Shown: piece after piece, positions 8,751 to 48,600 of the stretch
How the letters are laid out: the number at the start of each line of letters is the position of its first letter
How positions within the stretch are numbered: the first letter of the stretch is position 1
Source of the DNA: Cafeteria roenbergensis
Lineage: Eukaryota > Sar > Bigyra > Bicosoecida > Cafeteriaceae
Direction of reading: 5' to 3'
Assembly (NCBI GenBank): GCA_008330645.1
Contig: VLTN01000019.1
Coordinates: 485,958-549,957 of the forward strand
DNA: 64,000 nt
Made by a program: the position numbers and the translations under genes
Notes under the pieces: generated by a model
What the model was told of the DNA's origin: nothing
The model's database searches: none
What the model saw: only the letters and a program-made list of their open reading frames with translations

Positions 8751-11700
8751 TCATGCCAGCAGCAGTGCGCCGACCGAGCCGTGCAGCGCCGTCAGGAACT
8801 TGTCGCGGCACTGCGCCACCGACTCGTAGACCGGCAGCTCGATCTGGAAAAAGCAAGTGTGCGCAAGGGGCAACGCGGCGCCGCCGCGCTGCCGCATTGC
8901 CGTCTCGCCGATGGGGCTCAAGACGAAGCGATCCGACTCGTTCCATGCGCCAGCCGCTGGCAGGCGCGACCTGCCCCAAGCGAACTGGATCAGCATCTCC
9001 CGCTCCGCTTGTGTGAAAGTCTCCACCGCCTGCCAGAAGATGCGGATCGCGGGGTGGCTGGGCGAGAAGGGGTTGATGTAGCGGGTGTGCCTCCGCAGGC
9101 GGTCGATCTCGATTTCGTTTTCGCCTGCGATGAGCGTCTCGAACTCGCGCCACGTCAGCAGGCGGAGGGCGCTGGGGGGCACCACGCGGGCGATTCCCCT
9201 GCGCATGGCCTCGAACGCCCGCTCGTGCTCGGTCAGCCGCGCCTCGAGGGCGTTGCGTGCGTGCTCCAGCAGCGCGCGCTTCGTGGCGGCGACGAATCCG
9301 GGCACTGCAGCGGCAAGCGCCGAAGGCACCTGCCCCGCACGCGGCTGCGGGAGCGCCACAGGAAGTCCGTCCGAGCGGCGCACGGAGAGCGGTACCCTCC
9401 CGATGAGCTCCGGAATGGGGTCGTCCTGCCCGCCGTCCGCCTCCTTGATCTGCTCCAGCAGCCTGTTGAGAGTCCGGGAGAAGCTGGAGTCCACCACGCT
9501 GAGGTCCACGAGCCGCGGCTTGCGGCCCAGCAGGCGCTTCCACGAGTAGGAAGAGAGCTTGAAGTCCTCGGGCTTCTCTGTCCGGATGGCGACCCCCATG
9601 ATGATCCCCAACGCCTCATACTGCTGCATGGCGGCCCTGGAGGTGGCGGCGGGGTTGGGCATGAACAAGCCCACGCCGCCATGCGCCTCGGAAGGCGCGG
9701 GCGCGGGCATGAACAAGCTGAGCGACGCCGTGTCGAAGGCGTTGTCAACGGCCGTGGTGATGGTGTCGCGGAACAAGCCGCCGACGTCGATCCCAGCCTC
9801 GTTGACGGTGCGGCCACGGGCGTCAAAGTTTTGGAAGCCCACCTGGAAGAGGCGCCCGCGGTCCAGACCGACCTTGAAGCTTGCGTCGGCCCAGTCGTGG
9901 ATGAGGCCGGCGAGCTGCGCCAGCACGCACTTGGAGCGCGCAGGGTCGGTCTGGCCGGCGTCCTTGCTCTGCATGGCCTCCCCCTGGTGGATCCAGATCT
10001 TGCCGGGGTGGCGGCTGCTGTCGGGCGCGACCGAGGCTCGGAGCGCTTGGTCCAGGATGGGCTTCTTGCAGGCCGGAAGGCAAAGATGTGAGAGCGCGCG
10101 AATGTGCGACCCGAGCGTCCAGTCCCGCCCGGAGCGGCCCAGCGCCGCCAGGGCCCGGATGCGGACCTCGTCTTCGGCGCCAGCCGCGGCGGCAGCCTCC
10201 ACCGCGGCGTCAGCGCGCACCTCCTCGGCCTCGGCGCCCTCGCCCTCGGTGTCGTCATCCTCGTGGTCAGACGTGATTGCGTCCAGCTCCACGTACGGAA
10301 TGGCCTTGGCGAGGAGAGTGTTGAGCTGGATCACGAGCATGGAGCGCAGCACCACGCCGAAGCCCAGCATGCCGCAGACCTTGGCGGAGGCCTGGCGACG
10401 CAGCTTTGGGAACTCGGCCATCAGGCCCGTGTCCCTCATCACAGCGGTGATGTGCGTCGACGTGAGGTCCAGCTGCTGCACGTCTCGTTTGGCTGCTGCG
10501 CGAATGAGGAACCTGGCGAGCTCCTGGTCCTCAGACACGCGCCATGACGTCATGGCAAGCTGCGCCTGGCAGACCCGGTTCCGGTGCACCGTCGGAACCG
10601 AGCCCCCAAACGGCGGCTTTCCAGAGGCAGCCTGGAACACGGAGGCCATGAGGCGTTCGGGCAGCGGCCACCGGTGGCGCATGGCAGTGGCCATGCCCAT
10701 GAGCCAGGACAGCTGCTGGTCCAAGTCGGCGGGGGGCCACACAGCCAGAGTGGCCATGCCGTGCCTCCCGGCCCTGACCGACGCAGAAGGCGGCGGCAGC
10801 GTCTGCGAGTGAACCGAGTCGCTGTTGCAAATCCCGCCGGCTCGCCGAGCGAGAACGGCGAGCTGGAGGGTCTGAAGCAGCCCGGCAGGCTGCTCGGCCT
10901 GCTCGCCGAGGCGCAGCATCTCGCCCTTGACTGAGTTGAACAGCAGCTTGCCGGTCTGCAACAGCTGCTTGGCAGGGCCCTTGCCACCCTTAGCCAGCAG
11001 CTCCGGCGTTGCCAGCAGCTGCGCGAGCATGTTCACGGCTCGACCCTTGAACTTGCGCTTCGGCTGCGCGATGTGCGAAAGCAGCGCGCCCACCACGGAC
11101 GACGAGTGGAGCGCCCCCGACGCCACGATCTCGGGGCACGCCTTGGTGACGAAGGACCACAGGAACGCGCCGAACTCGAAGGACGACTGGCCGGTGAAGC
11201 CGCCGCTGCCGCTGCTCGTGGACACGGGCCGCCGGATCGGCGTGACCCGCACGCGCCAGCCCCAGTAGCGCTTGTCAAGGCCTTCTGATGCCACGGACTC
11301 GGCGCTCGGGAAGAACATGGAGTCGATTCGTACCGTGTCCCCGTGCACCAGGACTGGGTCGAAGACACTCCCTCCGTCGGCCGCCTTGCCCTTCAGGTCC
11401 CTGAGCGGCAGCGCCATGGCCCCCTGCGGCATGCACACCTTGACGCTTGCTTCGGGCGGGATGGAGCATTCCTTGTCGAAGTGAAGCAGCAGCGCCATTG
11501 CCTCCGGGAACGAGGCCTCGGACGCCCACGCTGCGTTGGCGGGGAAGGCATGAAGCGACTGCAGCACGACCGCGGCCGCGTCATCGCGCTCCGCCTCCGC
11601 CGTGGCGGCCTGCCCCTCCAGGCCGCCAATGTTCCGCGCGACTTCTGCGACCAGGCCATGAGCCAGGCCGGCCCGGCTGAAGCCGCCGCTGCTGCCTGCG

Positions 11701-23096: not shown

Positions 23097-23517
23097 GGGG
23101 GCCGCCTGCTGAGATAAGGGCGCCTGGAAGCTCCTGCTTGAGGCCGCAGTCTCCTGGCACAAGCCTTGGCGCGCTCGGCCGAGCTGTGATGCACCGTTCT
23201 CGGTCTCGTGGCGCTTTGCTTGCCGCTGGGCAAATATTTCCTAGCCATCGACCCTTGAACACAACATTCGAGCGCGCGGCCCTGGCGCCGGCGGGCGAGA
23301 CGCAATCGCTGATTGCAGTCGGGACCCCCATGTGTGATGCTCCGACGCTCAAGTGTGCAGGGGCAGGAAACGGCGGCACGAACGAGCATAGTTTTTGGAA
23401 GAGGTGGGCTGGGGGGGGATCGTGGTGCGGGGAGAGTTGGCGGCGGCCCCGAGTGCGGCGCACGCAAGCCACCGCGGCGAGAACACGCAATACAAACCAC
23501 ACTGGTGGCCCCCCCCG
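23097..23517. promoter_or_regulatory. Spacer upstream of the HECT gene
   Basis: This 421-bp segment separates the ATG of the HECT gene from the stop of the next - strand gene. It must carry the HECT promoter and 5'UTR and the 3' end of its neighbour. Bases 23097-23240 are open in the HECT frame without an ATG. I see no TATA box and no donor of the GTGAG type that would define an upstream HECT exon. Confidence 0.4.
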
Positions 23518-28775: not shown

Positions 28776-31100
28776 ATGGCTGTCGCCCAAGGTGCGTGGG
28801 CATGCCGAAATGGGAGCTGTCTCGCGTCGCAGTCACCCTTTCCTGGTGCCGCCAAGGCAGGCTGGGCTCATCGCATCGGCAGTCACTGCGTGTGTGCGGT
28901 TTGACTTGTCCTCGCAGATGCGACCGGGGTGCCGCGGGAGTGGCTGGTCCAGCTTGGCAGCGGGTGGTACGCCTTTATCGGCACGAGCGGCGTCGCGTTT
29001 GCCCTGGCGACCACGTACGCTTGCTCCCAGTTTCTGCATCGGACCTTGGAACTGTCGCGTGCTGCGAAGCGGTCGCGCTCCGTCGCGGCCCGCAGCGGCG
29101 GCTGCACCACAGAGTACCGAAGGCTCATGATGGGCCTCTCGACAGTTGCCTTGGCGCTGCGAACGCTCTGGCACCTGGACCCGGCATCATTTGAGGGCAT
29201 ATTGCCGCGCGCAGTGAGCTTCCTCTTGCTGCGGGTCCCGCAGTGCGTCCTGTTCCTCCAGGCGCTCTTCGTCGTGGCCTTCACGTGAGTTGCCGTCCGC
29301 CTCGGCGAAGCCCGCTTCCCCAATCCCCTCGCGCGGCTTTCGCCGTGCCCGGCAATGGCTTCGCCGCGTGCCCATGCCATCACATGCAGCCGCACCACCT
29401 CGGTGGCGCCGCTCCTCGTGCTCCTGCCGTCGCTCTGGGGGGTCTGCTGCCATGCGAGCGGGCCGGCGAGTTGCACAGTTTCCCCGCGACGCCTTGCCTC
29501 GGCCCTCCCTCCGCGCAGGCGGCGATTCACCATCTCGATGCTCAAGCTGTCCAGAATCAAGTCCAAAATCACTGTGGGGCGGTACAAGTACGTCTTTGCC
29601 GTCGTGGCGGTGCTTCTCGTTGTCGCCGTGGCCTGCGGCTTCGTCGGCTCGCTCGGAACGCTTGCCACTCCGCTTCACCTGGCCGAGCAAGGCATTTTCG
29701 CGTCGGTCGCCGTGTTTACCACAACCGCGGGCTTTGTGTTCGCCAGAGGCTTTCGCGCTGCGACGAGCTCCACGGGGGCGCCCAGTCCGGTGGCCACGCA
29801 GTCCCCGTTGACGTTGCCGCCCGGTCGCTCCAAGGCGCTCCCGGCGCCTCCTCGCGCCGCAGCGCAGCCCCCGGGTGGCGCGCAGGCAGCCGCTCCGGCC
29901 TCGGATGCAGCTGGCGCCGTCACTCGCGCCGCCTCTGCGCCCGACGCCGCCAGCGACGGCGTTGGCGGGGACGGGCGATGGGCCAACCCCATCGTGCGCC
30001 TCTCTCGCTCCTTCCGGATGTCGTTTCGGTCGTCCAGGAGCATCTTCTCGTCTGCGTCGGGCAGCGGGTTCGGTTCGGGCTCGCCCACGCAGGCCGGGCA
30101 GGGGCAGTCGGTGCGGGCGCGGCGTGGCTCCAGGATGGCGGCGCAGATGCAGGGCGCAGTCTTCGTCGGCATCGCAGGGGCGGTGGGTATGGGCGCGGCG
30201 CTTGCGTGGTCCGTGGCCACCGGCCTGCCGACTCCGCAGGAGTGGCTCTCGTTCACTGCGCTCTTCCGGGCCCTCGAGCTCGTGCTGGCCTCCTCAGCCC
30301 TCTACACAGTCGCCAGCGCGAGGAACAGGCTGGCCCGCCCCGTGTGCCCCTACCACCTCCTGGACTTTGCCCTCTGCGTGTGGTGGCCGCAGTGCCCCTG
30401 CCCGCGCAAGAAGCGCTTGCGGCCGCACATCGCAGGCGAGGCGCCCGGCGCTCCCGCCGCCGTGGAGGCTGCCGCCGCGCCGCTGCCTCTTCGCGCTCCG
30501 CAGAAGCAGGAAAGGCCCTCGCTGGGACGAGACATGTCGTTCCGCAGCAGGCTCCAGCTGCAGGTGCTGGCTTCGACCGCGTCTCCCGCGGCAAAGCAGC
30601 CGCGCGGTCGCGTTCCCCGCTCGCGGGCCTCGCGGACGTACGGGCCGCAGGGGGCGCTTGTCCCTGATGCGGACGCTGGGGGGCAGTCTCTGGCAACGGC
30701 GCAGCTGGGGCCGGCGCGCGCTCAGCTGGCCTCCAGAGACGCTCGCGCCAAGTTTGCGCGGCCCGCGCCGCCGCCCAAGCCGAGCAACCGCGTGCCAAGC
30801 GCGCTGGCCGCCACCGCGGCGGAGCCGTCGACCTGCCACGCGCAGGGCGCCGACTGCTTGCCCGCAGACTCCCAGGTGGGGGCTGTTGGGGGCGGTATTG
30901 ACGATGCGGAGTTGCTCGACGGCTCCGACCGCAAACGCGCTCCGAGCGGCACTGCGCTCAGCGAGAGCGACGGAGCAGGCAGCAGCAGCGACGAGTGCGA
31001 CTCGGAGAGTGACGGCTCGGACTCCGACTCCGCCCGCGGCACGAGGCTGCCAAGGATGCCTCGTGTCTCGGTGCTGAGCTGGACGGCGGAGAAGAGTTGA
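28776..31100 (+). CDS. Seven-transmembrane protein, orphan
   Basis: Exons are 28776-28791 (16 nt, MAVAQ), 28918-29284 and 29519-31100, joined by GTGCG/GTGAG donors and CGCAG acceptors, giving 654 residues. Both split codons (Asp6, Thr128) are restored. Hydrophobic segments lie near residues 22-44, 75-91, 103-127, 152-172, 185-203, 340-362 and 370-393. There are seven, with a long Ser/Pro/Ala-rich loop of about 135 residues between the fifth and sixth and a ~260-residue disordered tail rich in acidic Ser clusters near the end (DSESDGSDSDS). Basic residues flank helices 3-4 (TRRFTISMLKLSRIKSK). The count suggests a GPCR-like or TOM1/THH1-like receptor, but I see no DRY, NPxxY or other signature. 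Function is unknown. The tiny first exon is supported only by splice consensus, phase and its ATG. Confidence 0.68.
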
Positions 31101-31372
31101 CGGCGCGCTCCCCGCGCGGCGCGGCAACTTTGTGTCTGTATTTTCGTGATGGGCATGTCGGCTGGCAGGCCAAAGGAAAGCCTGAGACTGGTGTCTGTCA
31201 TTATTCTCGCGGGCTTGCTTGCGCCTGGGCGCTGGCACTCGTGTGCTGCCGCAGAGCCGAACACGCCATTCGCAGCTCCACAGTGCTGCAAGTCACTCGC
31301 GCGCACAGCCCCCCCGCCCCCGCGCGTGCTCCCGAGGAGCCCCGCAAATCCGATTCGGAGACTGGGCTCGCG

Positions 31373-32977
31373 ATGCTTGCGCTCAAGCGGGCCCGGCGGT
31401 CGGCCATTTGGGGCCTGCGCCACGCGCGGCGGTTCGCGTCCGCTGCCGAAGCCGCACAGGCGGAAAGCGCGGCCCTTGCAGCCGTGCGGCAGGTGGTGGA
31501 ACCTGTCACGGGTCTTTCCTTGGAACAAGTTGGAATGGACGTGAGCGTCCGGGCGAAGGGGGCCTCGCTCCCGTCAGCGACTTCGGCCGCCACCGGCGGC
31601 AAGGGACCGAGCTTGGTTGCCTCCATCGAGCTCTCTTCGGGGGCCTACCCGGAGCGGCCCGCTCTGGAAGCCGCCGTCAAGGGCGCCCTACTGTCAGTGG
31701 CCGGGCTTCCGCCGTCTACCGGCGTGGAGGTTCAGATGAGGCTGCGTGCGCCGCGCGCAAGGCCGCACGTCACTGAGCTCCGCCGCAGGGCGACCATGGT
31801 GACTGACGGGCTGAGCGAGGTCACGTCCATCATCGGCGTGTCTAGCTGCAAGGGCGGCGTGGGGAAGAGCACGGTGGCCCTCAACCTGGCCTACAGCCTC
31901 GCCGAAATGGGCGGCAGGGTGGGCCTGTTCGACGCCGACGTCTACGGCCCGTCGCTGCCCAGCCTGGTGCAGCCGGAGGACACCGCGGTGGTCCGCCTCG
32001 CCGACAAGGGCTGGCTGCGCCCGCTGTCCCACCACGGCGTCCGCCTCATGTCGTACGGGTGGGTGGCTCCCCGCGGCGACGACGGCGAGCGCGGCGGCGC
32101 CGCGATGAGGGGCCCCATGGCTAGCAGCGTGGTCCAGCAGCTGTCGCAGCTCACCGACTGGGGAGCCCTCGACGTGCTGGTGGTGGACATGCCCCCGGGC
32201 ACCGGCGACGTCGTCATCACCCTGGGCCAGAAGCTCGCCTTCTCAGGCGCCGTCATCGTCACCACGCCGCACCCGCTGGCCCGCGTCGACGTCCGAAAGG
32301 GGGTGGAGCTGTTCCAGCGCATGCGCGTGCCCTCCCTCGCCCTCGTCAACAACATGGCCTACCTCCGCCCCTCCGCTGCCGCGCCTGCGGTTCACCCGTT
32401 CGGCCAAGCAGCCGACGAGCTCGCGGCGCTGCAGAGTCGCTTCGACATCCCGGCTGCAGCGTCCGTCCCTCTGGACGCCGCCCTGGGAGCAGCGCCCAGC
32501 GAGTGGCCCTACCGCTCGCCGGAGGTTCTCGACGAAGTGGGCGGGCAGAGCTCCCGGCCCTTTGCGAACCTGGCCGACTCGCTCGCCCGCGAGCTGATGC
32601 GCCGCGAGCACAGCGCGGCGATCAAGGCGAGGCGGGCGGAGACAGCGCGGGATGCAGACGGGACGGACGCCGCAGGCCGCGGCGTCGCGTTTGTCGGCGG
32701 GGCCGGCGGCATCGAGGCGGGCATTGCGCCCGGCGGTGACGCAATTGTTGTGCGCGCATTCCGCGACGACGGCGCGGAGCAGCACGCCGTGGCGGCAGTG
32801 GCCGCTCGCCGGGCGAGCCTCGCTGCGGATGCTGGCGCGCCTGAGGACGTGCACGAGGGCGTGACGGCGCTGGCGTGCGCACCCGAGGGGAACTACGCCG
32901 TAGCAGTGCGCTTCAGCGACGGCCACGAAGCGATCCTGCCCCTGGAGGAGCTGCTCCGGCTCGGCCGAGGCAGCTGA
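31373..32977 (+). CDS. HCF101: HCF101-type P-loop ATPase / Fe-S cluster carrier (Mrp/NBP35 family)
   Basis: Intronless, 534 residues from ATG 31373. The frame extends upstream without an ATG, but the family alignment begins just after this one. Domain order is that of HCF101: MIP18/DUF59-like (about 38-130: RQVVEPVTGLSLEQVGMDVS), then a Mrp/ApbC ATPase with the deviant Walker A CKGGVGKST (159-167), DADVYGPSLP, MPPGTGDVV (from 273) and VVDMPP, then a C-terminal DUF971 domain (GNYAVAVRFSDGHEAILPLE). The Mrp/NBP35 CxxC is absent: the VNNMAYL block (about 326-332) runs on to HPFG without cysteines, as in plant HCF101. HCF101 moves [4Fe-4S] clusters to targets, photosystem I in plastids. The N-terminus MLALKRARRSAIWGLRHARR is basic, amphipathic and lacks acids, so a mitochondrial location is likely; this is inference. 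Confidence 0.9.
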   Translation: MLALKRARRSAIWGLRHARRFASAAEAAQAESAALAAVRQVVEPVTGLSLEQVGMDVSVRAKGASLPSATSAATGGKGPSLVASIELSSGAYPERPALEAAVKGALLSVAGLPPSTGVEVQMRLRAPRARPHVTELRRRATMVTDGLSEVTSIIGVSSCKGGVGKSTVALNLAYSLAEMGGRVGLFDADVYGPSLPSLVQPEDTAVVRLADKGWLRPLSHHGVRLMSYGWVAPRGDDGERGGAAMRGPMASSVVQQLSQLTDWGALDVLVVDMPPGTGDVVITLGQKLAFSGAVIVTTPHPLARVDVRKGVELFQRMRVPSLALVNNMAYLRPSAAAPAVHPFGQAADELAALQSRFDIPAAASVPLDAALGAAPSEWPYRSPEVLDEVGGQSSRPFANLADSLARELMRREHSAAIKARRAETARDADGTDAAGRGVAFVGGAGGIEAGIAPGGDAIVVRAFRDDGAEQHAVAAVAARRASLAADAGAPEDVHEGVTALACAPEGNYAVAVRFSDGHEAILPLEELLRLGRGS

Positions 32978-33604
32978 TGACAATGACAGCTGCGGGGGGC
33001 GTCGGGTGCGAGTGGAGAGTGCGAGGGGTCGTCCTCCCGCCTTGAGCGCGCTCAGCTGGGGGCTCGGCTCGGACTGCGCTGGTGGGCGTGCGGCTGCGGG
33101 GATGGGGCCCCTCGTGCGTGCGCGGCCGCCCTGCGAGCCGCAAGCGCTGATTGGGCGGCTGTGAGGGCAAGATGCTGAAGTGATCGGTTGCCGCCGGCTG
33201 CCTGCCTTGGCGCGACGCGCCAACGCGCGGTGAGAGGCCTCGCCTCGGCACTGGCGCCTCTATCGCAAGCGCTCGCTCGCTCAACCGCACGCAAACTTCC
33301 ACACAAACAAGTCCGGTGGCGAAACGCCCGGGCCCAAACCTTGCACCCCCCCTCTTTCATCCCTCAGCACCCCCCCCCCCCCCCCCGTCTGGGTGGCTGT
33401 GCTCCGCTAAACAGCACCCGACGCTCCGCTGCGGTGGCGAGACCGCCAGCACGCGAGCCGACACAAATCGGCCGTCTGACGAGCGCAATCGAGCCACGCC
33501 GGACGAGCGCGGCGCCACTTTGGCGGCGGCGTCGCGAAGACAAGCAGTGGCAAGGGCCAGCGCTCCGGCCGCGACCAGGGCGCCGGGTCTGGGGGGCTCC
33601 GGGC
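32978..33604. other. Convergent intergenic region with poly-C tract
   Basis: 627 bp between the stops of HCF101 (+) and the SPRY gene (-). It should hold two 3'UTRs and polyadenylation regions. A 17-base C run occupies 33370-33386. No ORF on either strand has a plausible product; the apparent ones are Arg/Pro/Ala shadows. No canonical AATAAA was seen. Confidence 0.5.
33370..33386 (+). repeat. Poly-C (17) homopolymer
   Basis: An uninterrupted run of 17 cytosines in the convergent spacer, probably prone to slippage and to sequencing error. On the - strand it is a poly-G run downstream of the SPRY stop. Confidence 0.85.
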
Positions 33605-34977
33605 CTAGGCTGTCGCGGCCTTGCCCAGACGCGCGCCGACGGGCTCCGCGAGTTCGACCAGCGAGTCCGATACCTTGCCCCAGCCGTTACCCAGGCAGAG
33701 GTGCACGCAGCTGGAGCCCGAGAGAGAGATTGCCGGAAGCACGCGCGTCTTGTCCTCCGGCGTGATGAAGATCTCGTGGGCCATGGCCCCGTTGCGGTAG
33801 ATGGACATCTTCGTTCCGGGGCGGTCGACCACGACCCCGATGGTCTCCCCGCCGGTGATGGGTGCCCACCCCTCGAGGGCCTCGCCCTTGCCGTCCGCGG
33901 GGGCCTCAGCGAACACTGCGCCGTCGAGCAGGCTCATCGCCCAGCTGCCGTCAGACTGGCCGATGCCCTGGCCCATGCTCTCGTTGAGTGGGAGGACGGT
34001 GGACACGACACCCAGGCGGATTGTACCCCTGGGCACGCCTGCGGGAAGCTTGACCTCGAAGCACGAGCGCATGTCCGACGCAATGGGCAGGCGGAAGGCG
34101 ACTGAGGCGAGCTTGGAAGTGGCGCGCAGCTTAAGGCCGCCCTCGATCGTGGCGGTTCCGCTCAGGATGCGCACGGTGCTCTCCAGGGACGGCTCGCAGC
34201 CAGGCGCAGCCTGCATGCCCGAGCGCGCCATTGTGAACAGGCGCATCGCTGCGGGCTCCGAGGGGGACTGCTCGCCGCCGGAGCGGCTGGCCATGGGGTC
34301 TGGAACCGCCTCGGGGGCGCTGGAGGCGCCGGCAGCCGCGGCAGCGGACTCGAAGCGGGAGGCAGCCGCCGCGGCGGCGGGGCCCGGAACGATCGGGTTG
34401 GTGTTGTCTGCCGACGGACTCGCCTCCGCTGCCCCTGGCGACTTGGGCTTGCTGTGGACCATTTCTACGGCGGGCTTGTCGTCGCGCGTCGCGGGCCGGG
34501 CCGACGGGCGCCGCCTCACCCGGCGGCAGGGGGCTTTGCAGCAGCTCTCAGCAATGTCGCCGCAGGCGCAGCGGCCGAAGGTCAGGAACGCCACAACCGC
34601 GTAGAGGATGACCCATGGCCAGAATGTGAAGAAGCTGACCGCCGCAAACATCTCCCCCGAGGTGATAGGCCTGCAGTTCTCGTTGGTGTGCGAGCAAACC
34701 TCCACCGTGCTCGAGTTGCCCAAGTGCTGCGCCGAGACGACCCGCCCCACCAGCGCGAGGCCCGCCGCCGCCTTCAACAGGACTGCGAAAGGGCACGCGA
34801 TCACGGGGGTTCGCGCGCAGGGCGATGGAGTGCTGGGAGGGGGATCGCCGGGCTCGCCGCAAGGGCACCGCAATCTCCGTGCAATGGCGCCGCGTTCGCC
34901 TCGCCCGCTGCGCGAGCGCCGGGCTCGCAGTGGGGGCGGGGCGCCTCGCAGCTGGCAGCTCGCTCACAGGGACTCAT
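33605..34977 (-). CDS. Single-pass membrane protein with CX6C ectodomain and SPRY domain
   Basis: Exons are 34968-34977 (10 nt: MSP plus one base) and 33605-34782, joined by GTGAG...CGCAG with a restored Phe codon, giving 395 residues. Without this exon the frame has no ATG before the membrane helix. The N-terminus is a signal peptide, MSPFLLKAAAGLALVGRVVSA, cut before QHLGN. A short ectodomain holds C33-SHTNEN-C40-RPITS. A membrane helix (about 51-72, FFTFWPWVILYAVVAFLTF) and a Cys-rich juxtamembrane stretch (CACGDIAESCCKAPC) follow, a likely palmitoylation site. Then come an Ala/Pro-rich linker and a SPRY/B30.2-type domain (about 240-395: TIEGGLKLRATS, TIRLGVVST, GETIGVVVDRPGTKMSIYRNG, LPAISLSGSSCVHLCLG). 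SPRY domains bind proteins or peptides, so this looks like a membrane-tethered adaptor. The divergent neighbour shares its N-terminal module. Confidence 0.8.
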
Positions 34978-35155
34978 GGCCGCTCCGCCTCGGGCTCGCT
35001 CGCCCTGGCTTCCAGAAAGCCTGCAGACGTGAGCGAAATTGGCACGATTGCCGCAAAAACTCGTTGGACTCGACGCTGCTTTGCCGCCGCTGGTCGATCG
35101 CCAGCGCCGGCCCTGCGGTCCTCGGCCGGCCCAGCACCTGCCGGGACGCGGAGCA
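34978..35155. promoter_or_regulatory. Shared promoter of the CX6C-TM gene pair
   Basis: 178 bp between the ATGs of the SPRY membrane protein (-) and the 75-residue protein (+). Because the two products share an N-terminal module, co-expression from this segment is plausible. No TATA box is visible. The assignment rests on orientation and spacing. Confidence 0.45.
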
Positions 35156-35598
35156 ATGGCGTCGGCGCGCGCTGCTGCGTGGGCCCTGCTCCTCGTGTGC
35201 CTCTGGCACGCTGCCAGCGCCCAGTACTTTGGCAACGGTGAGGGGAGCGCGGGCCGCACGGGCGCCCTTGGCACCCCAATGTTCGCCGCCCACGACCGCC
35301 CGCGCCGTGGCCCCTGCCCTCCCCGCCCTCCCCGCCGCAGCGACGGGGACGATTGTGTGCACGCATGACAATCCGGATTGCCGCCCAGGTGAGCCTCAGA
35401 CGGGCGGAACAGCTCGCGCGGCGCGGGCCGTTCCGCAACCGGGAAATTGACTCGCTCCCGGCAATGTCTCCCAGCCGCCTGCTTGCCATTCCCCGCGCAG
35501 TGACAAGCAGCGAGCTGGGGGCCGTCGTGTCCGTGATGACGGTGATTCCGTGGATCGGGCTTTGCGCCGCTGCCGCGTTTTTCACGTTCGCGGGATAG
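35156..35598 (+). CDS. 75-residue CX6C-TM mini-protein, paralogue of the SPRY protein N-terminus
   Basis: Exons are 35156-35237, 35341-35388 and 35501-35598; both introns (103 and 112 bp) are GTGAG...CGCAG and in phase 1. Residues 1-22 are a signal peptide ending AASA. The mature part is QYFGN, a seven-residue link, C34-THDNPD-C41-RPVTSSE, then a membrane helix (about 48-70) that ends FFTFAG at the stop. It aligns without gaps over about 54 residues to the SPRY protein N-terminus, with about half of positions identical, including SAQ, GN, both Cys of CX6C, CRP, TS, E, PW and the F-TF end. The short ectodomain would be luminal or extracellular with one disulphide. Each exon is short but the frame is restored twice, and the paralogy independently confirms the model. 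No known family is recognised. Confidence 0.8.
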
Positions 35599-35820
35599 TC
35601 CACTCGCTCGCAGCGACCGGAGGGCGTGGGATGGCGGGTGCTTGCGTCTCCCCCTTTCCGCCCTTGGGGTCTGCTGCACTGCTTAGAGTGTTCGGGGGTT
35701 GCTTGTTCTGCGACTTTGCGTATGTGTGTGTGCACGGCTTCCGCTGCACAACCAGTCAGACGTTCGGGGCGCCGGGCACGCTCCCCGCTCACGACCACTC
35801 ACCCTCCCCTGCACCACCCC

Positions 35821-38800
35821 TCACTCTGGCGGGGCAACGAGATCCAGCGCGCCGCTCGAACCACCAGCAAGCAGGTCCACGTCGTCGGCAACGACGTCGT
35901 CGCCAGCGTGGCTCCCGCTCCCGCGCGGCTGCCCCGCCTCCGACGCGTGCTCCACGTCGTGCAGCGCCTCGCGCGTCACGCGCTCCGCAACCGCCCGCTG
36001 GTAGGCCGGGTCGGCCGCGCGCGCCGCCTCGGCCTTGGCGCTTGCCGTCGCCTCCGCCTGCGCCGCTGCCCACGGCCGCACGCGCTTCGAGTCAGGGATG
36101 TCCGGCCGCTCCGCCCGGGCGCGCGCGTCGGCGGCGAAGCGGTCCGCGCGGATGCCGGGGTTGGTCGCGGCGGCCCCGGGGCCGAGCGAGTAGTCGACTG
36201 GCGTTGTGGGCCGCATGCCCCCCACGATCGGGGACCCCGCGCGCCCGCGGCTGCGGGGCCTCGACGACGACGATGTGCCGGGCCGCGTCCCGCTCGACTT
36301 GCGGCGCATCGGCGCCGCGAAGCCGCCCTCCGCCAGCATGGACGCCTCCTCGAACAGCGCCGCCGCCTCCCGCACAGAGGCCTCGTGCCGCGACGGCCGA
36401 CGGGCCCCCCGCGGGGGAGTCCCGGCCCTGCCTTGCGCGGATCCGCCCCTGGCGCGCGGCCCGCTGAGCGACTCCGCACCGGCCGCGCCTGAGCTCGACC
36501 CGCGGACCCGCCGCCCGATGCCGGTCAGGCTGCGCTCCGCCAGCGCCGCGTCCAGGCTCTCGGCGTCGATCAGCCCCGCAGGCACTGCGGACCCCGCCCT
36601 GACCGGCACGTCCGCGCCCGAGCCGGCAGCCACGCGGTCAAGCCCCTTGTCGATCACGGCCCGATCCGCGGCAGGGGTCGCTGCCGCAATCACCGCGGCC
36701 GCCTCTGCCGCGTCCAGCGCCTCTGTCGCGTCCCGGCCCTCGGCCCGCGCCGCTCGGGCGGCCGCTTCCTCCACAGCGCCGCCCGGTCTCTGGCGGGGGG
36801 CGGGGCCGCCCCCGGCCCTGCCCGCCTCCGCGCGAGTCTGCCCCCACCTCTCCACGTCCTGCCCTCGCTGCCTGGCGCGGTCGCCCGCTGCGCCGCGCCC
36901 TCTGGTCGACGTGGCGCCCATAGTCGACGACAGCCGCTCACGGGGTCCCTGCGTGCCCGACCGGCCGCTGGCCCCGGGATCCATGCCCGATGCGGCGGCG
37001 CGGCTCATCGCAGGGAGCAGCGACGCCGAGCCCGTGGCCGTGGCCGCGGCAGCACCCTTGCTCCGGCGCCCGCGCGGCCGCGCCTTGAGCCGGGCCGCCT
37101 CCCACTGCGCCCCCGAGCTCACCAGCGCCGCGGGAGCCAGCCGCTGCGGCTCCGCGTACACCTGCGCCGATTGAGACGACGACATGGCAGGGAGCGACGC
37201 TGTCGACGACGCGACGCCCCGGCGCCCGCGCCTGCTGCCGCCGGCGTGGGCCTTGGCCCCGAAGTGCTCCTCCCGCGCACCGCCTGCGCCCTCCGACCGC
37301 CGCGCCGAGCCTGTGAAGGTGGCGGGGTGGCCCGTCTCCCCCGTGGAGGCGCGGGCCTTGGCCCTGGCGTCGGCAAGCACGGCGGCACCGTCCCGACCGT
37401 CCAGCGCCGATGCGGCGCCGCCGCGGAAGGCAGGCGACTCCCCCGGCTCCAGCGACGTGACCGATGCGGTCCCGTCGCCAGCGAAGCGGGGCGGAGGTGG
37501 GGACACGACCGCGTCGCTCTCCGCGGCCCGCGCGTCAGCGTCCGAGTCGCCCTCGGCGCCCTTGCCCTCCTGGCCGTCCCGGGGCCGCGGGGGCCGCTTT
37601 GAGGACGGCGCGCCCCGCTTCTTGCGCCGGGGAGGGGGCTTGCGACGGCGGCTCGCCATGGCGTCCTCCTCGGCGCGCCGGCGCCGTTCGTCTTCGATGG
37701 CGGCGCGGCGGGCCATGGCGTCGGCCGCGCGCGTGCGCGCCCACTCGTCCGAAGAGCTGATCAGACGAGAGAGGCCCTCGCTGGGAGGTGGGGCGTCCAG
37801 CGTCCCGCTGCCCTCGGTGAGCGCCATAGCCGCGCCAAGCTCAGCGCGGGCCTCCTCCATCTCCGCGCGCAGCCGCTGCGAGCGCCGGATGTGGCTGGCC
37901 ACCGCCGGCGCCGGCCGCGCCCGCAGAGGCGAGAGCTCTGGCCGTGGCTGGCGGGGCATGCCCCTGGGCACCGAGCCGTCCGCGCCCCCTGTGGAGCTCG
38001 GGTTCGCGGCCGAGCGAGCGGCCTCCTGCTGCGCCTGCTGGCGCGCCAGCTGCGCGGACGACCGCCCGCGGCTCGGAGACGTGCTCCCCACAGGGACGGA
38101 ACCGATCCCGAGCGCGTCTGGGGGGGCGCGGGAGTTCATCGACCCCCCGGCGCGCCAGGGAGCGGGCGCCGCGGCGGCCGCCGCACTCGCGCCCGCACCG
38201 GCCCCGCTGCCGCTGCCGCTGCCGCTGCCGCTCCGCGAGGCAGAGCTTGCCGCCGACAGGCGTGCCGCGGCGTCGGCCTTGGCCTTGAGGCGCGCCTCCC
38301 GCGCCCTCCGGCGCCTCGTCTCGGCCTGCTCGGCCTGGAGCGCCGCTTCGGCCGCCTTCCGGCGCAGGCGCGTGGACTGCCTTAGCTGCTGCTCCGTCAT
38401 GCGGGCCTGCTTGTCCTCGGCGACGTGCATGGGGACGCCGGCGACCACCTCCTCCGTGGCGAGGATGCGCTCGTTGCCAGTCAGCCGGCGCGCCTTGACT
38501 CGTTGCGGGCCTGTCAGCTGCAGCGTCACGCGGCCGTCAGCGGGCAGCGCCAGCGAGGACGGGTCCATCTCGGGGGAGAGGAGGCGCATCGCGGCATGGC
38601 TTCGCTGGGGAGAGGCCCGCTCGGCGAAGGACTCGCCGAGGTCGTCGCGGCGAGAGACTCCCGCCCAGCCGTCCGCCGCCTGGCTGTCGCCCGAAGGGCT
38701 GGAGGGACGGCGGCGGCCGGCGTCGCCTCCGGCGCCCATGCCCGGCTCTCCCATGCCAGCAAAGCGAGGGGGCACAGCGGCGAAGGCGTACCCGCTCAGG

Positions 38801-41800
38801 GCCCCGGAGCGAGCCAGGGCTTCGTATGCCGGAGGCACGATGTTGGCGCCCGGATCGGAGCGCTGGCCCCGCGCGCGCATGATCCCGATCGGCGCCGGCG
38901 AGAGGGACGACTGCACGCCCACGCCCCCCATGCCCAGCCGCTCTGACATGGCGGCCACGATGAGCGAGTCCCGCACCTCCTCCACGTCGAAGACCACACC
39001 CTCCACCGCGTCCACGCCAACGATGGAGCCCGCCGCGCCGTCCGAGGACCGCCCTGCAGCCGAGGGCGCCAACCGAGCCCGGGTGCCCGGCCCGCGCGGC
39101 GCCCTGTTCGGCGAGAGCGACGGGTGCGCAAAGGCAAAGGGGCTCTGCAGGGTGGCCTGCATGGCGTCCCCGCCCGGCATGGAGCCGGCGAGGCGTCCCG
39201 TCACGTTCTCGTCGATCCTTCCCATGCCCAGGCCCATTGGTGCGTCAACTTCGTCCGCAAAGGCGCCGGCGCCGCCCGCCAGCATCATCGCCTCCATGGC
39301 ATCGGCGGCCTCCCGTCCCGTCCAGCCGTCGATGCCCGCGCTGAACTGGGGCGACCCGTGGCTCATCGCCGCGGCAGCGCCGTGCGGGCCCGGCGTCCGG
39401 CGTCCCTGCAGGCCAGCACCGCCGCGGCCGGCGCCCGGGTCGCCGGCACCCCCAGCGACGCTCGGCGACGCCACGGACGCGTCGGGCAGCAGGCGGCTCG
39501 ACTCCAGCATGGAGGGCAGCAGCCCGCCGAGCGGCGACAGCGACGCCTGCAGCGCGGCCTCCACGCTCACGCCGTCGGGCACCCGGCCCACGCCGCCGAC
39601 GCACAGCGAGCTGGGCCGGCCGAAGAGAGAGTCAACCTTGGCCCACTGAGGCACGCGGTCCGCGTCGATCAGAGTGGCCTCCCCGTTCCGGTGGGCGCGC
39701 GCCGCCGCCTCCACGGCCGCTCGCAGCGCCGGGTCGCCGTCGGCGCTGTCGAAGGACCCTTCCGAGTCGCCTGCCACAATGGCGCCGGGCCTGCCGCTGC
39801 CGCCGCCAAGGGGCGCGCGAGGCGGCAGCTTCAGGCCGAGGCCCGCCGGCGCCGCAGCGGCCGCCGCCGCAGCGGCCGGCGGCGTGTCCCTGTCCTCCTC
39901 CGCCGGGACGACGTCCTCAACGGCCGACACCGTGGACTGCTGCTGCTCGAGCCCGTCGCCGGCCGCGCCGGGCGCGGACCTCGACGAGTCCGGCTTGCCA
40001 ACGGAGGAGTTGCCGCCGCTCCCCGCGGCCGGCGCGGCGCCGCCAGGCGCGCCCCGCTCGGAGAGGCCCTTGCGAGCTGCAGCGAGCCCGGCGGCGGCCG
40101 ACACTGCGACGCTGTCCTCCACGGCGGGCGGGCGCGGCGCCGGGCCCAGCAGCGCAGCCTGCGCCAGCCTCGACGTCGGCGCCGACACCAGCTTCAGCCG
40201 GGGCTCCACTGCCTGCACCGCCTGCCCCGTGAGCGCCCTACCGCTCGCGTTGATGGTGGTGCCGTGGTCGGGCACGCGGTACGGGACCGGGAGGTCCGAG
40301 ACGCGCCCGTCGGCGCAGGGGAAGACCACGCAGTCTGGCCGGACGACGTACAGCGCCGCCCACAGCATGTCGCGCCGAGGAGTGGCCGGCCCGGACGCGG
40401 CCCCGCCCGCCGCCCCCTTGGCCCCGTCGTCGGACCGCGCCGACATCCATCCGGACCCCGCGCCCCAGGCCTCGGCCTCGCCGGCGGAGGTCCTGAGCTG
40501 CGCTCCCGCCGCGAAGGCGCCTGCGCCGCCGGCTCGGCTGCCGTCGGCGTCGGCGCCGTCGCTGTCGTCGTCACTCTCGCCGTGGTCGTCGTACTCGGAC
40601 GCCAGCCCGGAGCCCGTGCCCTCCTGAATGGCGTCGGAGATGCCCCGGCGCAGCATTCCGCCGGGCACGTCGCTCACGTCGTAGTCGTCGTCGTGGTCCA
40701 CGCCGTCCGACTCTGCGTCGGACTCGGACCGCTCGCTGATGGCAGCGGGCGCGGCCCGGGCCGCCCCTGCTGCGTCCGCCTCGCCGGCCGCGCCGTCGTC
40801 GTCCTCGCCGGCCGCGTGCGGCAGCAGCAGCAGCACCGACTGCACGATGCTCCCTCCCCCCATGCCGAGGCCCCCCTGCCCGGAGGACTCCTCTCCCATG
40901 AGACGGGGGTCGCTGGAGCACAGGCTCAGCGCCTTGGCGCACCACGACTTGGAGACGCCGTCAACCTCGGGGTCGGATGCAAGGGCGGCCAGAACCGGAA
41001 GGATCCGCGCGCGCAGCAGAGGGGCCCGATGCGACTCGCGGGCCGCCAGCCGGGCCACGCACTCCACGCCGCTCCGGCGGATTGCTGGCGTGGTCATGCG
41101 GACCAGCGCCAGGATCGCACGCAGCCCCGGCGGCGTCTCTGGCGCAGCCCCGAGCGACGGCTGCGAGTCCGCCAGCCCTCCCCGCTTGCTCGACAGCGGC
41201 CCGACGCTCGGCCCGAAGCCGCTGCGCGCTGCGGCGCCAGAGTCCATCTCCGCCCCGCGGCCCTGCCCAACCAGCGCGTCGCAGCCTCGCTTGGTGCGGG
41301 CGCAGGCAGCCAGCATCTCGCCCGCCATCCGCAGCACGTGCTTCAGGAAGGCCTTCACGTCGGGCGAGCACCACGCGGCCCGCGCGACCGCGGCCTCCTC
41401 CTTCTGGCGCCTGTGCTCCTCGGCAGCCTGCCACGGGTTCTTCCCCGTGGACGAGGCGCTCGTCCGCGCCCCGGCGGGCCCTGCTCCGGAGCGGGCCGTG
41501 TCGCTCGCGCCGATCCTGCCGCTGGCCCCCAGGCCGGCGCCAGCCCCGCGGTGCTCCCCCGCCGCGGTCACGGAGCCGCGCTTCGACGCAGTGGTGTTGA
41601 GCGATTGCCTTGGCCCAGCCTCGTGCGCGACCTCGGCCGCGGCCTCCCGCACCGCCCGAAGCTGCGCCCGGGCCCGCATCACCGTGCGCACGACGGCAGC
41701 GACGCCCCCGGCGCACAGGAGCGAGATCACGCGCTCCGGCGTGCCTGCGGTGCCCTGCTGCGGCAGCACGTTCTGCACCGATGCGGCCAAGCGGACGGTG

Positions 41801-44800
41801 GAGCGGCTGCCGATCCCGACCCCCGAGAAGGCCGATCCCAGCGGCTTGCCGCCCTTGGCCTGGCTCTCCCAGCTGCCGTCCCCTTCGGGGCCCTCAGCCA
41901 CCACGACCGGCGAGTCGCCGCCGAGAGCCCTGCGCCGGATCGTGGCCGCGTCCTCCTCCTCCGCGCGGCGCATCCGCTCCTCGAGCTGCTTGTCCATCCG
42001 GGCCTTGGCCGCCTGCTGCGCGGACAGCGGCTGGTGAGAGAGCAGGTCGGCGGAGCGGTCGGTGCCCTTGATCCCCGACCGCATCACGGCCTGCAGCAGG
42101 CCGCGGGACGCAGCGGCGTCCGCCGCCCCGTCCTCGCTCGCGTCCGTCGCGGCCATGCCAAGCGGCTGCGAAGACAGGCCGGAGCGGCCCATGTCGGTCG
42201 GCCTGCCGCTGGCCGCCACCGCCGCGCCGGCGCGGATGCCGGACACGGCCTTGGCGGCGGCCTCAGAGGCCTCGGCGTCAAGCTGGTCTTCCACCTCGTC
42301 GCTGGACAGGTCCGGGTCCGGGCTGTGCATGTCCGCGGTGGAGCCGCCGGTGGCCACCACCGCCGCCGTGACGTGGCAGTGGAGGATGGCGAGGACGGCC
42401 GCGCGAGCCTTGGGCGTGAACTGGCTGCCGGCGACCCCGCCGGCACCCCCGCGCAAGTCCTGGAGGCCCGGGGCGCGAGCGGAAGGCAGCGCCGTTCCTG
42501 CGTCGGCCGCCATTTGCACGCGCTCGCGCACGGAGGGCGGCAGCGGCGGGGTCATGATGGTCCACGACCTGTCCATGGCGGCCGCGAGCGCGGGTGCCAG
42601 GCGTGCCAAGACGCGCGCGCTCAGCGGGGGCGGCGCGGCTGCGGCCATGTCGATGGCACTTCCGTCCGTGCTGTCCGCCGCCAGACCCGTTGCCCACTGG
42701 TCGCCGCCCTCGCTGGCCTCCTCGCCCTCGCCCAGCCACGTCACGCAGATGTTGGCGAGCGCCACAGCGGCCGCCTCCCTCGCAGCGGGAGCCACCGCGG
42801 GCGCCACCACCGCGGCAGTGAGCGCGTCCAGGATGTCCTCCCGGCGAAGCCAGGGAGCCAGCCTGGGGCGGCCGGACACAGTGGCGGCAACGGCCAGCGC
42901 CAGCGACGTGCAGACGCCTTTCCACGCCGCCACGCTGCGGGAGCGGGCCGGCGGGGCGCGCGGGGGCAGCGGGAACTCGGCCGCTGCCGACACCCCCCGC
43001 GAGCCAGGCCCGCCCAGCGGGAGCGACCCAATCCCCGAAAAGGACGGCTGGTGCCCTGCAGCGGAGCCTGCCGGCGTGGGAGGGATCCCGCCCGCGGCGC
43101 CTGCTCCCGACTGGGCGCCTCCGCCGGCGGCTGCGGTGGAGGACGAGGCCATGCCGCTCATGTGACCGCTGGCGGACCTCACGCGCATGCCGCTGCGGGC
43201 AGGAGCCTGCGACGCGAAGTGGGCCCAGTGGCGGGTCCAGCCTGAGGCAAACGCCGACCGCGGCAGCCCCACCAGCAGCGTGCAGGCCAGGGCAGTGCTG
43301 CGGTCGTGGGCGGAGGCGCCGAGCGCGGCCTTGAGCGCCAGGGACACCACGCGGGCGGCCTCGTGCGGGGCCGCCTCCTCCAGGTGCCGCAGGGAGTTGC
43401 CCCCGGGCTGCGTGGCCAGGTTCAGGGTGGCCGCCAGCGCGCTCTCCGTCAGCGCAAGGCGGGTGGGGATGCGAGCCATGGCGGTGGCGGGCAGGACCAC
43501 GGGCCTGGGGCCGTGCGAGGGGGGTGGCGCGTCCTTCGCGGCCGAGGCTGGCCCGGTCATCGCCACTCCCTGGGGCGCAGCCTTGGCCTGCGGCTGCAGC
43601 GACCGCGGCGGCAAGGGCGGCGCGAGATGGGGGTCGTCCTCAAGCTCCTCGCAGTCGTCGCTGGCCCACACCGTCACCCACTGCGACAGCACGTCCAGAC
43701 CGCCGCCGGAGCGGGCTGCGCCCACGCCTCCGGCCGGGCCGGGCTGCGCTGCGCCGCCGCCGCCAGCATCCCCGTCCTCGTCCCGCGAGGACAGCGCGTG
43801 GCCGCCGGCCACTTCTGGCGCCTTGGTCGCGATGGAGAGCAGACGTCGGCACACCTCCATGCCGCCGAAGATGCCCATCGTGTTGTCCTCGGACGTGATT
43901 GCGGCAAGGTGCGCGGCCGCCTCCGCCGCCGCGAGCACGGTTCGCGTCAGCATCGCACGGCACCGCGAGCGAAGCAGCAGCGAGTCGGGCCGGCCCGAGT
44001 CGGCCAGGGGCAGCACGCCCGTCTCCCCGCCACTGAGGTCGGAGGCGCCGAGGCCCAGGCTGTCGCCGAGCAGCTCCACCGCCTCCAGTCCCGCGATGTC
44101 GACCACACCGTCTGGAGGCGGGGGCCGCACGGCGGCGAAGGAGGGCTCCTGCCGGGGCGCCACGATGCTCAGCCCCGAGGGCCGCGCCTGCATCGAGGGC
44201 CCCGCCGCGCTGCCGGCGCGCCGCCGCGCCGCCTTGGCCTGGCGCTTGCCGCCAGCGGGGGCCCCGCTGTCGGAGTCGGAGCTGTCGTCCTCGCCCTCCT
44301 CCTCCACTGCAGTGGCAGAGGCCAAGGGAGACGACATGACGTCGAGGCTCCCGACGCGGTGGGCGCGACCTGCCCAGCCCCCGGGGCTGCCCGTGGCCTT
44401 GGGCGAGACCATGTACACGGAGCCCGTGTTGGAGCGCGTGAGCGCGGACGGCGAGGAGCGCATCATCACTGTCTCGGCGAAGGACACGAACGCGCGCAGC
44501 AGAGGCACTGCGGTGTTCCCCGTCGTCGCGATGGACCTGGCGGCCTTGTCCGCTCGCGCCAGGCGCGCCAGCGACACGGCGGCCCGCACGGCAACGGGCA
44601 GGTCCGGGAACAGCATCGCCTCCCACACCGTGGCCACGAGCCCGTTGCGCACCGCAGACGCGGCGATGTCCGGGCGGCGGGCGAGCTCCGCCGCGATGCC
44701 CACCGAGGCGAGGCGCACCCGCGGGTGCGGCGAGGTCGCAAACGCCACCAGCGCGTCGAGCGTGCGGCGATCGCCCACCGCAGCGGCCGCCGCGCCCGCG

Positions 44801-45591
44801 CCGTCCTTGCCGGCGCACAGGGCTGAGAGGTAGCGAGCGCAGGACAGCTGCCTGTCAGCGCTGTCGGCAGCGGGGCAGCGCTCCAACGCGCGGAGGACGC
44901 GGGCCGCGCCCATGCCGCCGGTGGTGCTCATGCTCAGCGCCGCCAGCTCGATGTCCCGGGGCTCGGGGGGGATGCCCTTCGCGAGGAGCAGCGCTGCGGC
45001 GGCCGGCCCGCCCGCGAGCGCCGCCGCCCACAGCTGCTTCCTGGCAGAGTTGCTCACGGATGCCTGCCAGAGCTGGCGCAGCATCAGCTCGGCGTCGGCC
45101 TGCATGCCGGCGGCACTGCCCGGCTCGGTGAGGTGCTCCAAGCCCTCGGCCTCCCCGATGAAGGACTCTGTCCTCGCGGCGTCGGGACCGTGTCCCGCCA
45201 CCTCCCCCCACCGGCGCGCCCTGCTGCTGCTGGAGCCGCGCGACGAGGCGTTGGAGGCGGCTCGCAGACGAGCGATGCCGGTGCGGGGGCCGGCGAGGGG
45301 GATGTGCGCGCCCGCGGCGCCGGAGGCAGACGCCGCGCTGCTGGGCATGCCGGCGCCGGCGGAGCTGACTGACCCGCCCGCAAGCTGGCCCGCCCCCGTC
45401 GCCATGGCAGGCGTGGGGGGGTGGGCCGGCGACGGCGGCGCAATCTGCGCCCCCGCAAACGGCGAGGCGGGGCCGCCCCCGACGGGAGTCCCGTCCCCGC
45501 CCGTGCGCGCGTGCAGGCCATGAGCGGACAGCAGCAGCGACGGACGGCGAGCGGGGGCCTTCCGGCGCAGCTCCGCCACGATGCCCCCTCG

Positions 45592-45630
<39 letters not shown>

Positions 45631-48600
45631 CTCCGGCGTGCCCTGGGCAATCGGCGACTCCACGGCAGGCCCTCGCTCCGCGCCAGGGCCGAGCGGCAGC
45701 GGGGAGGACGCGCCCGCGGCCGGCGGTTCCGCGCTGAGGTCCACCGACCCGCTGCCCGTGCGCAAAGCCTGGCGGCCGAGCTCCGCGGCCACGCTGCTGA
45801 TTGGCTGGTCGCTGGCGTCCACGACGCGCTGCGCCGCCTCCACGGCTCCGTCGGCTGCAAAGCCCCTGCCAAGCGCCATCGCGCTCGCCTCTGCAAGGGC
45901 CCTGCCGTCGCTGCCGAGGCGCACCATTGCCCAGAGCCCGCCCGACTCCAGCACCCGCTTGCGCGCCTCGGGGCACGCCGAGACGTTGACGAGCGCCGCC
46001 GCTGCCAGGTCCTTGGTCCGGGAGTCGTCGCAGCGGAAGAGGGCGCCGATGGTCAGCGCCGAGGCCACGCCCGCCTCCACCAGCTGCAGCTCGCGCGAGG
46101 CGCCGGGGCCGAGCTTGCGGAGGCCGCAAGCTTCGGCGTGCAGGGCGAGCTTCGCGGCTGCGCGCATGGTCTCCTGGCGGGTGGCGGGAGGCACGCCCTC
46201 GCTCCGCAGCTGGGAGGCAGCGTCGCCGTCCTCGGACGCGATGGGCACCGCCAGCGCGCCGCGGGGGCAGGTGAGGTTGTACGCCGCCTGGGCGCACTCG
46301 CGCCGGAGCAGCGTGTTCAGGGACCGCGAGTACGCTGCGATGATGGGCAGGGCCCCGTGGTGGATGAGGGGGGCGTGCGCTGCAGGGTGCGCGGACAGCT
46401 CGCACAGGGCGAGGAGGCACTGGGGCCGGAGCGCCGGGCGGGCCGACGCCACGCCGCACAGGGTCGCGATCACGCCGGGGCCCCGGAAGCGCATGGCCGG
46501 GGCCGCGGGGCCGGGGGGAGGGCGGAGCGGGAAGGTGGGGCGGATGAGCCTCTTGGCGCTGCGGGGGCGGGCGCCGGAGAGCATGGGGGTCACGAAGTCG
46601 CCGTCCGCTCCGTCGGCGGCAGCCGCCGCGCCCGCGGGAGTGGCCGCAAACTCCATCGCTGCGGCTGCCTCCCGCGCCGCCTCCAGCTCCTCGACCGCCG
46701 CTGCGGTGCCCTGCAGGGTCCAGTCCAGGCCGACGGCGGCGCGGGCCGCTCGGTCCTCGAGCCAGGCGTCCCCCGGCGAGCCGGCGGCGAGGATTGCGGC
46801 GTGGGTCTCGGGGCGGGCAGCCAGCTCGCACAGCGCTGCGGTGGCGTTGTCGAGAATGCGCGCGCGGCTGCCCTCGTCGGAGAAGGCCGCGGCCGCGACG
46901 CTGACGCCGGACCGCGCCGTCGGGCTGAGCAGCGAGCGGCCGTCGTCGCCGGAGCTGCGGCGCCGGCTGCGAAGCATCCCGCGCAGGCCGCGGCTCTCGC
47001 ACGCGACCTCCAGCAGCGCCTCGATGGCGCTGCCCTCGATGAGCGGCACCGTGGCGATGGCGTGCTGCGCCATGGCCCGGAGCGCCGCCGTGGCGTCACG
47101 CCGCTCGTGCATGGAGCCGTGCCGGGCAAGCAGCGTGATGGCCGGCAGAGCCCCGCAGGCCAGGAGGTGGTCGACGGCCTCTTCCCCGGCGTCGGTGAGC
47201 GCGCAGATGGCGCGGGCGCAGCGCCGCGTCGGCCGCTCCCCCTCGTCCACCCCGTCGTCGACCTCCACGGCATCGAGGTCGAGGCCGCCGCCGACGCTGC
47301 GGCCGGACGGCGTGCCCGCTGGCTGGGAGAGCGCGGCCTTGTGCGCAGCGCTGCTGAGCTTGCCTCGCCAGGAGGCGCCCGCCGCAGACCCGGGCGTCGA
47401 GATGCTCTCAGACCCCCCGCCAGCGGTGCCCGGCCGCTTGGACACGGCGGTGGCGTCGAACGTGAAGCCGCCAGCGCCCGCCATGGGGGAGGCCGCCGGT
47501 GCCAGAGCGTCGCTCACCGCCTGGACCATCACCTTGACAAAGCCGAGGCCCAGCATCTGCCGCCGGAGCTCCTCTCCGTGCTCGAAGAGGCTCGCAAGGG
47601 CCAGCAGGGCGCGGCGGCGGATCGTGCCGCCGGCGACGTCAAACCAGATCCGCAGCGCGGGGCCGGCGCCCGCAGCCACGAGCGTGGCGGCCAGGTGCGC
47701 GTGACGCGAGAGCAGCATGGTCGCGGTGACGGCCGAGCGGGCCAGCCCCAGCTCCTCAGGGAGAAGCAGGCCCTGGAGGCGGGCAGCGCTGGGCGTCTCG
47801 ACCGCCTCCCCGGGGGGCGCCTCCGTGCTCTTCTGGGCAAGGGAGGAGTCGTCTGCCAGCGTGTCGGAGTTGAGCTGCAGCAGCCCGCTCGCGGCGGAGC
47901 CGGCGTAGTCGGGGATGGAGTGCCCCGCCGCGAGCAGACGCCGGCGCGTTCGCCGCGCCACCGCGGCCGCCAGCCGCACCAGCCGCCTCACCACCGCCCC
48001 GTCCTCCGCGATGCCCTTTCCAACGGGGGAGTCGGACGCCGCCAGCTCGAACAGAACGCCGGCGGCCAGCTCTTTGGTGGAACGCTTCTTGGAGTCCAGC
48101 AGCCCCATTAGCAAGGGGAGCACACGGTCGACTCCCAGCTCCGGGGACGCAGTGGAGGACCCGGGAGGCAGCCGCGCAACCACTACAAGGGCCCGCGTGC
48201 ACGCTGCGCGCATCGCAGCGTCGTCCTTGGGGTCGGCGACCGGCCCGATCTCCTCCGCGTCGAGCGGGTCGGACGTCAAGGGGTGGCTCCCTCCTTCCAC
48301 CTGGATCCCAGTCCCCGCGCCCTTGGGGCTGTCGTCCAGCCTCGGCCTCGCCTGCGGCGCGCCCTTCTCGCCTTCCTGTCCCCCAACGAGAGCCTCCTCG
48401 TCGTCGCTCCCGAAAGACTCGACAACGGATCCCCCCAGGCTGGCCATGGAGGGCACGCGCTCGACCCCGCGGCCGCCGCCGCCGCCGCCGCCGCTGTCGC
48501 CAGCTGCGCCCGCTGTCTCCTTGCTCTCCTCGGAGCTCTGGCCGTCGACCCTGCTGTCGACGCGGCCGTCTCCCGCCACGGCACCGTCAGTGGCGCCGTC

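Follow-up and report, generated by a model that had tools for sequence, protein, structure and literature searches.

A head-to-head gene pair of Cafeteria roenbergensis sharing a small membrane module, carried by a SPRY protein and by a short, practically tail-less paralogue

The genes for BTN3A1 and BTN3A2 are linked, and they encode one of the closest described parallels to the gene pair reported here. In PMC10665462, BTN3A1, a receptor with a B30.2 domain, and BTN3A2, which is without the whole of B30.2, are described as forming heteromers that control trafficking and sensing. The butyrophilins, which are vertebrate proteins, share with our two genes (gene A and gene B) a type I single-pass layout in which one paralogue carries a cytosolic SPRY-type (B30.2) domain and the other does without it. 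A second parallel is offered by the Shisa-like family, whose members have several conserved cysteines in the N-terminal domain. These adaptors (Shisa, WBP1L, VOPP1, CYYR1) are characterized in PMC10531659 by a single transmembrane (TM) segment. With an N-terminal cysteine part, one TM segment and a long cytosolic tail they resemble gene A, and analogues of the layout of the pair are in this sense already known.

To our knowledge, the receptors of the protist group to which Cafeteria roenbergensis belongs have been little studied. The species is described in PMC6972860 as a bacterivorous flagellate and as the host of a giant virus and its virophage. We analyzed the last 64,000 bases of one contig (485958-549957), hereafter the window, from a host genome of 36,303,456 bases in 167 contigs; the GC content along the window, taken in 2-kb steps, is 67-79%. 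The two genes are arranged as follows (positions in the window).

34977-34968 joined to 34782-33605, minus strand: gene A, 395 aa, one intron
34968-34977, minus strand: gene A exon 1, 10 nt (ATG, two codons and 1 nt), predicted by the model only, donor T|GTGAGC
34783-34967, minus strand: gene A intron, 185 bp, GTGAGC...TTTCGCAG, phase 1
33605-34782, minus strand: gene A exon 2, with the remainder of the signal peptide, the module, the Cys cluster, the linker, the SPRY domain and the stop
34978-35155, no strand: intergenic stretch between the two ATGs, 178 bp, candidate bidirectional promoter
35156-35237, 35341-35388 and 35501-35598, plus strand: gene B, three exons, 75 aa
35156-35237, plus strand: gene B exon 1, signal peptide and SAQYFGN
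35341-35388, plus strand: gene B exon 2, 48 nt, symmetric phase 1-1, the entire CX6C loop
35501-35598, plus strand: gene B exon 3, the TM helix and its PW, with the stop two codons past FFTF

These gene models reproduce exactly the exons, the intron positions and the 178 bp between the ATGs that had been given in the preliminary description. Because no ATG precedes the module in the exon 2 frame of gene A, translation must begin in a short first exon (or at another codon), and the predicted 10-nt exon is the best candidate for this start exon. All three introns of the pair are phase 1 and of the form GTGAG...GCAG, those of gene B being 103 and 112 bp long, and their sites are completely different in the two genes: after residue 3 in A, and after residues 27 and 43 in B. 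According to PMC6972860, C. roenbergensis genes average 1.67-1.89 introns, so that a one-intron gene A and a two-intron gene B are ordinary in this genome. A scan of the intergenic stretch for promoters and terminators of bacterial type found none, the scan model being bacterial and not meaningful for a eukaryote; the absence of TATAAA from the window is likewise uninformative, since only 0.07 occurrences are expected by chance. The region 33000-35900 contains six short two-copy families of direct repeats and nine imperfect inverted pairs, none of which could be tied to gene A or gene B.

In both proteins, an N-terminal signal peptide ends in SA before Q (signal and cleavage site were judged by eye). 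The fifth residue past the presumed SA|Q cleavage is in each case the asparagine of an N-x-S/T sequon common to both proteins (NSS at N26 in A, NAT at N27 in B), and this conserved sequon is a new addition to the earlier description of the module. Past the sequon, both proteins contain a stretch of the form C-X6-C-R-P-(I/V)-T-S-x-E, whose cysteines in A are C33 and C40, and then a hydrophobic helix at residues 52-70 (means of 1.97 and 2.08 for A and B, respectively) with PW in its middle. The outer part of the module thus comprises ~30 residues outside the helix after the presumed cleavage. When exon 2 of A was modelled with AlphaFold2 from the single sequence, without an alignment, 293 of 391 residues fell below a pLDDT of 50 (mean 42.8), and the module alone reached block means of 67-78. 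In this model, the module forms two short strands (A residues 30-33 and 40-43) that contain one cysteine apiece, followed by one helix.

Gene B ends two residues past FFTF, practically without a cytosolic tail. From its stop to that of the next long open reading frame (ORF), on the other strand (35821), there are only 222 bp, which leave little room for a lost SPRY domain or for any other domain. Leaving out the 48-nt exon 2 of B keeps the reading frame and creates an NVT sequon at the joint; in-frame skipping of this exon could switch the outer loop off while adding a new sequon.

A BLASTP comparison of A and B gives 28 identities over 61 ungapped positions (60.8 bits), which bears out the proposal that a module of signal peptide, CX6C loop and TM helix is common to both genes; the 54 positions, about half of them identical, that were originally noted cover a shorter part of this alignment. 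As the exons of B might have been picked to fit this resemblance, we also used a model-free test, in which the 601-bp region was aligned with residues 12-72 of A by the best GT-AG fit with 0-2 introns of 60-200 bp. The spliced-alignment score of the region is 146, compared with a mean of 34.9 and a maximum of 50 for 200 dinucleotide shuffles, and with a mean of 36.3 and a maximum of 59 for 2096 random stretches of the same size, on either strand and partly overlapping, from elsewhere in the window. Given these maxima, chance is excluded as the source of the resemblance between A and B.

To evaluate the constraint on the two copies, we compared them by codon position. Over the 61 aligned codons, identity is 34/61 at position 1, 40/61 at position 2 and 25/61 at position 3, with codon-shuffle means of 16.3, 16.5 and 22.8, respectively; none of 5000 shuffles reaches the observed values at positions 1 and 2, whereas the value at position 3 is reached by 1605 of them. 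The same codon is used for 10 of the 28 identical residues, and Nei and Gojobori counting yields pS 0.61 and pN 0.41. Since positions 1 and 2 agree above chance and position 3 is chance-like, the codon comparison indicates that the copies of the module are old and that both are kept as proteins. Third positions at chance level in a protein that has been kept are unlike what a decaying copy would show.

The helix is identical at 12 of 24 residues (A residues 49-72) and the loop (B exon 2) at 7 of 16, so that the two appear about equally conserved in an alignment of two sequences, which measures per-residue conservation only weakly. Conservation of the helix at the level of the loop would be more than a generic anchor needs, and suggests that the helix packs against something.

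Gene A continues past the module into a cytosolic tail. CRRVRRRPSARPATR comes after the helix and fits the positive-inside rule; residues 74-103 contain a cluster of cysteines and a polybasic, arginine-rich stretch, and an Ala/Pro/Ser-rich linker leads from there to the SPRY domain (PF00622) at residues 244-369. This domain, already assigned in the preliminary description, is real by the Pfam gathering cut-off (E 9.1e-9, 35.9 bits against a cut-off of 26.3). An AlphaFold2 model of the SPRY part alone, again without an alignment, has a mean pLDDT of 36.7, and at this value and the 42.8 obtained for the whole of exon 2 the single-sequence models of the SPRY domain are unusable, too poor for a fold search on the beta-sandwich expected of this family. 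A phmmer search of PDB sequences with the SPRY part (E ≤ 1) found no SPRY chain; four head or capsid decoration proteins with E 0.45-0.47 were taken as chance matches.

The host genome contains at least 24 SPRY matches, that of gene A included. A search of the genome with the SPRY domain of A gives no close relative, the next match having an E value of 0.08. Gene A shares this domain with SPRY proteins generally. Among the 24 matches listed, A alone (1.97) has a hydrophobic segment that exceeds 1.75 and precedes the SPRY domain, in a check of visible single-exon frames, many of them cut at the ends of the locus, that may miss membrane segments of other SPRY genes. Strand and frame were set by the match, and the first segment in the visible frame of A, which partly reads into the intron, was left uncounted. 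Of the other loci, L013 has one segment (1.88), located after its SPRY domain, and the frame of L017, more than 6700 codons long, contains three weaker segments (1.62-1.75), of which one precedes the SPRY domain. Elsewhere in the genome, at locus L002, 65 bp (G000:C86:56766-56830) match the linker DNA of gene A at 80% (E 1.6e-7), probably through shared Ala-rich low-complexity sequence.

The module had been said to resemble no known family, and the database searches agree. Apart from the SPRY domain of A, neither protein has a match in Pfam at E ≤ 1, in a search whose filters drop most matches above ~0.1; neither matches NCBIfam, a library made for prokaryotes, and the module profile has no match among PDB sequences at E ≤ 10. 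In protein searches of the host genome at E ≤ 10, which score the best candidates only and could miss a very divergent copy, the module was found at this locus alone, apart from one match with an E value of 0.29 (C36:299011-299151) that is unconvincing as a further copy. With gene A as the query of the 36-Mb genome, nothing but exon 3 of B is matched besides A itself at E ≤ 10 (E 0.024; 0.011), and with exon 3 of B as the query gene A is recovered at E 3.0e-5. A profile built from the two modules and run with hmmsearch --max against six frames of the window and of the retrieved loci finds this locus only, among the matches listed. The two-row module alignment was also compared with viral contigs (19 pattern matches) and with contigs of prokaryote genomes (37), and none was confirmed; such an outcome is to be expected of a protist gene and is uninformative about other protists. 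In the library of papers searched, we found no report joining SPRY with Cafeteria roenbergensis or bicosoecids, and none on SPRY membrane proteins with a signal peptide from stramenopiles.

Comparison with the known systems reveals differences. The ectodomains of butyrophilins are of the IgV/IgC type, whereas A and B expose a loop of ~30 residues. The B30.2 domain of butyrophilins includes a PRY part, whereas gene A has SPRY without a detected PRY. Pfam at E ≤ 1, with filters that drop most matches above ~0.1, detects no Ig family in A or B and no PRY subdomain before the SPRY domain of A. Gene B, unlike BTN3A2 in this comparison, has practically no tail. As this search detected neither Ig domains nor PRY, we rejected the assignment of A and B to the butyrophilins; the likeness is one of layout, and no sequence relation was found. 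From the Shisa-like adaptors, gene A differs in its terminal SPRY domain and in a module without a Pfam match, and the outer parts of A and B have two cysteines rather than several.

The best reading of these results makes A a SPRY receptor or adaptor that crosses the membrane once and B its tail-less paralogue, BTN3A1/BTN3A2-like in layout only. As a tentative account of the whole locus, we favor an ancient duplication of a small type I membrane module whose two copies lie head to head, with B most likely the partner of A. In such a pair, the module would form a glycosylated, disulfide-closed hairpin outside the cytosol, in type I orientation. The juxtamembrane cysteines of A (through palmitoylation) and its arginines would keep the linker at the membrane, and the SPRY domain would bind a cytosolic partner. 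B, which consists of the outer loop and the helix only, would most likely enter mixed dimers with A through these two parts, and might set the surface level, the spacing or the ligand response of A, as the tail-less BTN3A2 does for BTN3A1. The partnership of the two genes is the least certain step of this account, a reasonable reading of their adjacency and shared sequence.

The preliminary description had proposed a candidate two-component membrane system, with the free copy as a putative partner, decoy or co-receptor of the SPRY adaptor and the 178 bp as a putative shared promoter. Much of its basis stands: the module occurs once on a SPRY protein and once free, both copies are constrained, and the genes lie head to head. 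Interaction through the helices, however, is not supported by the helix-face test, in which none of eight variants showed significant grouping of the conserved residues on a single side of the TM helix (p 0.10-0.53).

The same result bears on the foremost alternative, which we consider quite possible: A and B are both functional membrane proteins that do not cooperate. B would then be an independent micro-protein modulating another membrane protein, A would have gained or kept its SPRY tail after the duplication, and the adjacency of the genes would be a relic of that duplication. Third positions at chance, pointing to an old split, and the completely different intron positions are in keeping with such independence, as is the absence of a helix-face signal; yet over this long time the genes have stayed adjacent, and outer loop, sequon and half of the residues in the helix are still common to both.

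Alternatively, B might be a decoy, titrating a ligand or a partner of the outer loop of A without passing on a signal. The end of B just past the conserved FTF, practically without a tail, would suit this role, as would the scant room for another domain in the 222 bp before the next stop. Because a decoy predicts an outer part that binds a ligand, however, and so little lies outside the helix, and because helix and loop are conserved to much the same degree, we judge this explanation improbable. It is also unlikely, in our estimate, that the pair is a putative lineage-restricted heteromeric sensor, a convergent protist counterpart of BTN3A1/BTN3A2 made up of a SPRY-tailed protein and its tail-less paralogue.

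Codon usage bears on whether B is a gene at all. We used a codon score trained on the two ORFs of the window longer than 4800 codons each, which we assumed to be coding because they are so long. Gene B scores 0.18 overall, below the average of 0.25 for in-frame stretches of those same training ORFs, whose other frames average -0.29, and a score as high as that of B is reached by only 1.7% (11) of the 640 stretches in wrong frames. Exon 2 of B, with 15 codons only, scores negative whichever of the six frames is read (-0.22 to -0.58; coding frame -0.35). That B is a decaying copy or an artefact of the gene model is very improbable: its splices are predicted and its scores somewhat low, but the spliced frame is intact, the splice pairs follow the consensus, the join is without a gap, few wrong-frame stretches score as high, and the constraint falls on codon positions 1 and 2 and not on position 3.

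A module that is an orphan in the libraries searched has persisted as protein in two linked genes for so long that the agreement of third codon positions is only at chance level. Should the two proteins work together, they would show that a receptor with SPRY in the cytosol, along with its tail-less partner, arose outside vertebrates, in a flagellate that feeds on bacteria. The pair offers a small, well-defined target for the study of surface proteins.

The window contains several other features. Tail-to-tail with gene A lies a NUBPL-type iron-transfer P-loop NTPase (31013-32977, plus strand; ParA family PF10609, E 4e-64), and tail-to-tail with gene B an open frame of 4822 codons (35821-50289, minus strand) with no Pfam match at E ≤ 0.001. 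A second very long open frame (8751-23240, minus strand; 4829 codons) has a C-terminal HECT ubiquitin ligase domain at residues 4524-4820 (E 5.4e-45). A frame at 55634-57163 (minus strand) matches the central coiled-coil of ODAD1 (PF21773, E 8.7e-9), a component of outer dynein arm docking. Finally, a tandem repeat with the 8-bp unit GCGTGCTG extends over positions 61692-61950 in ~32 copies with a 100% match; with a unit of this length, a reading frame would shift from copy to copy.
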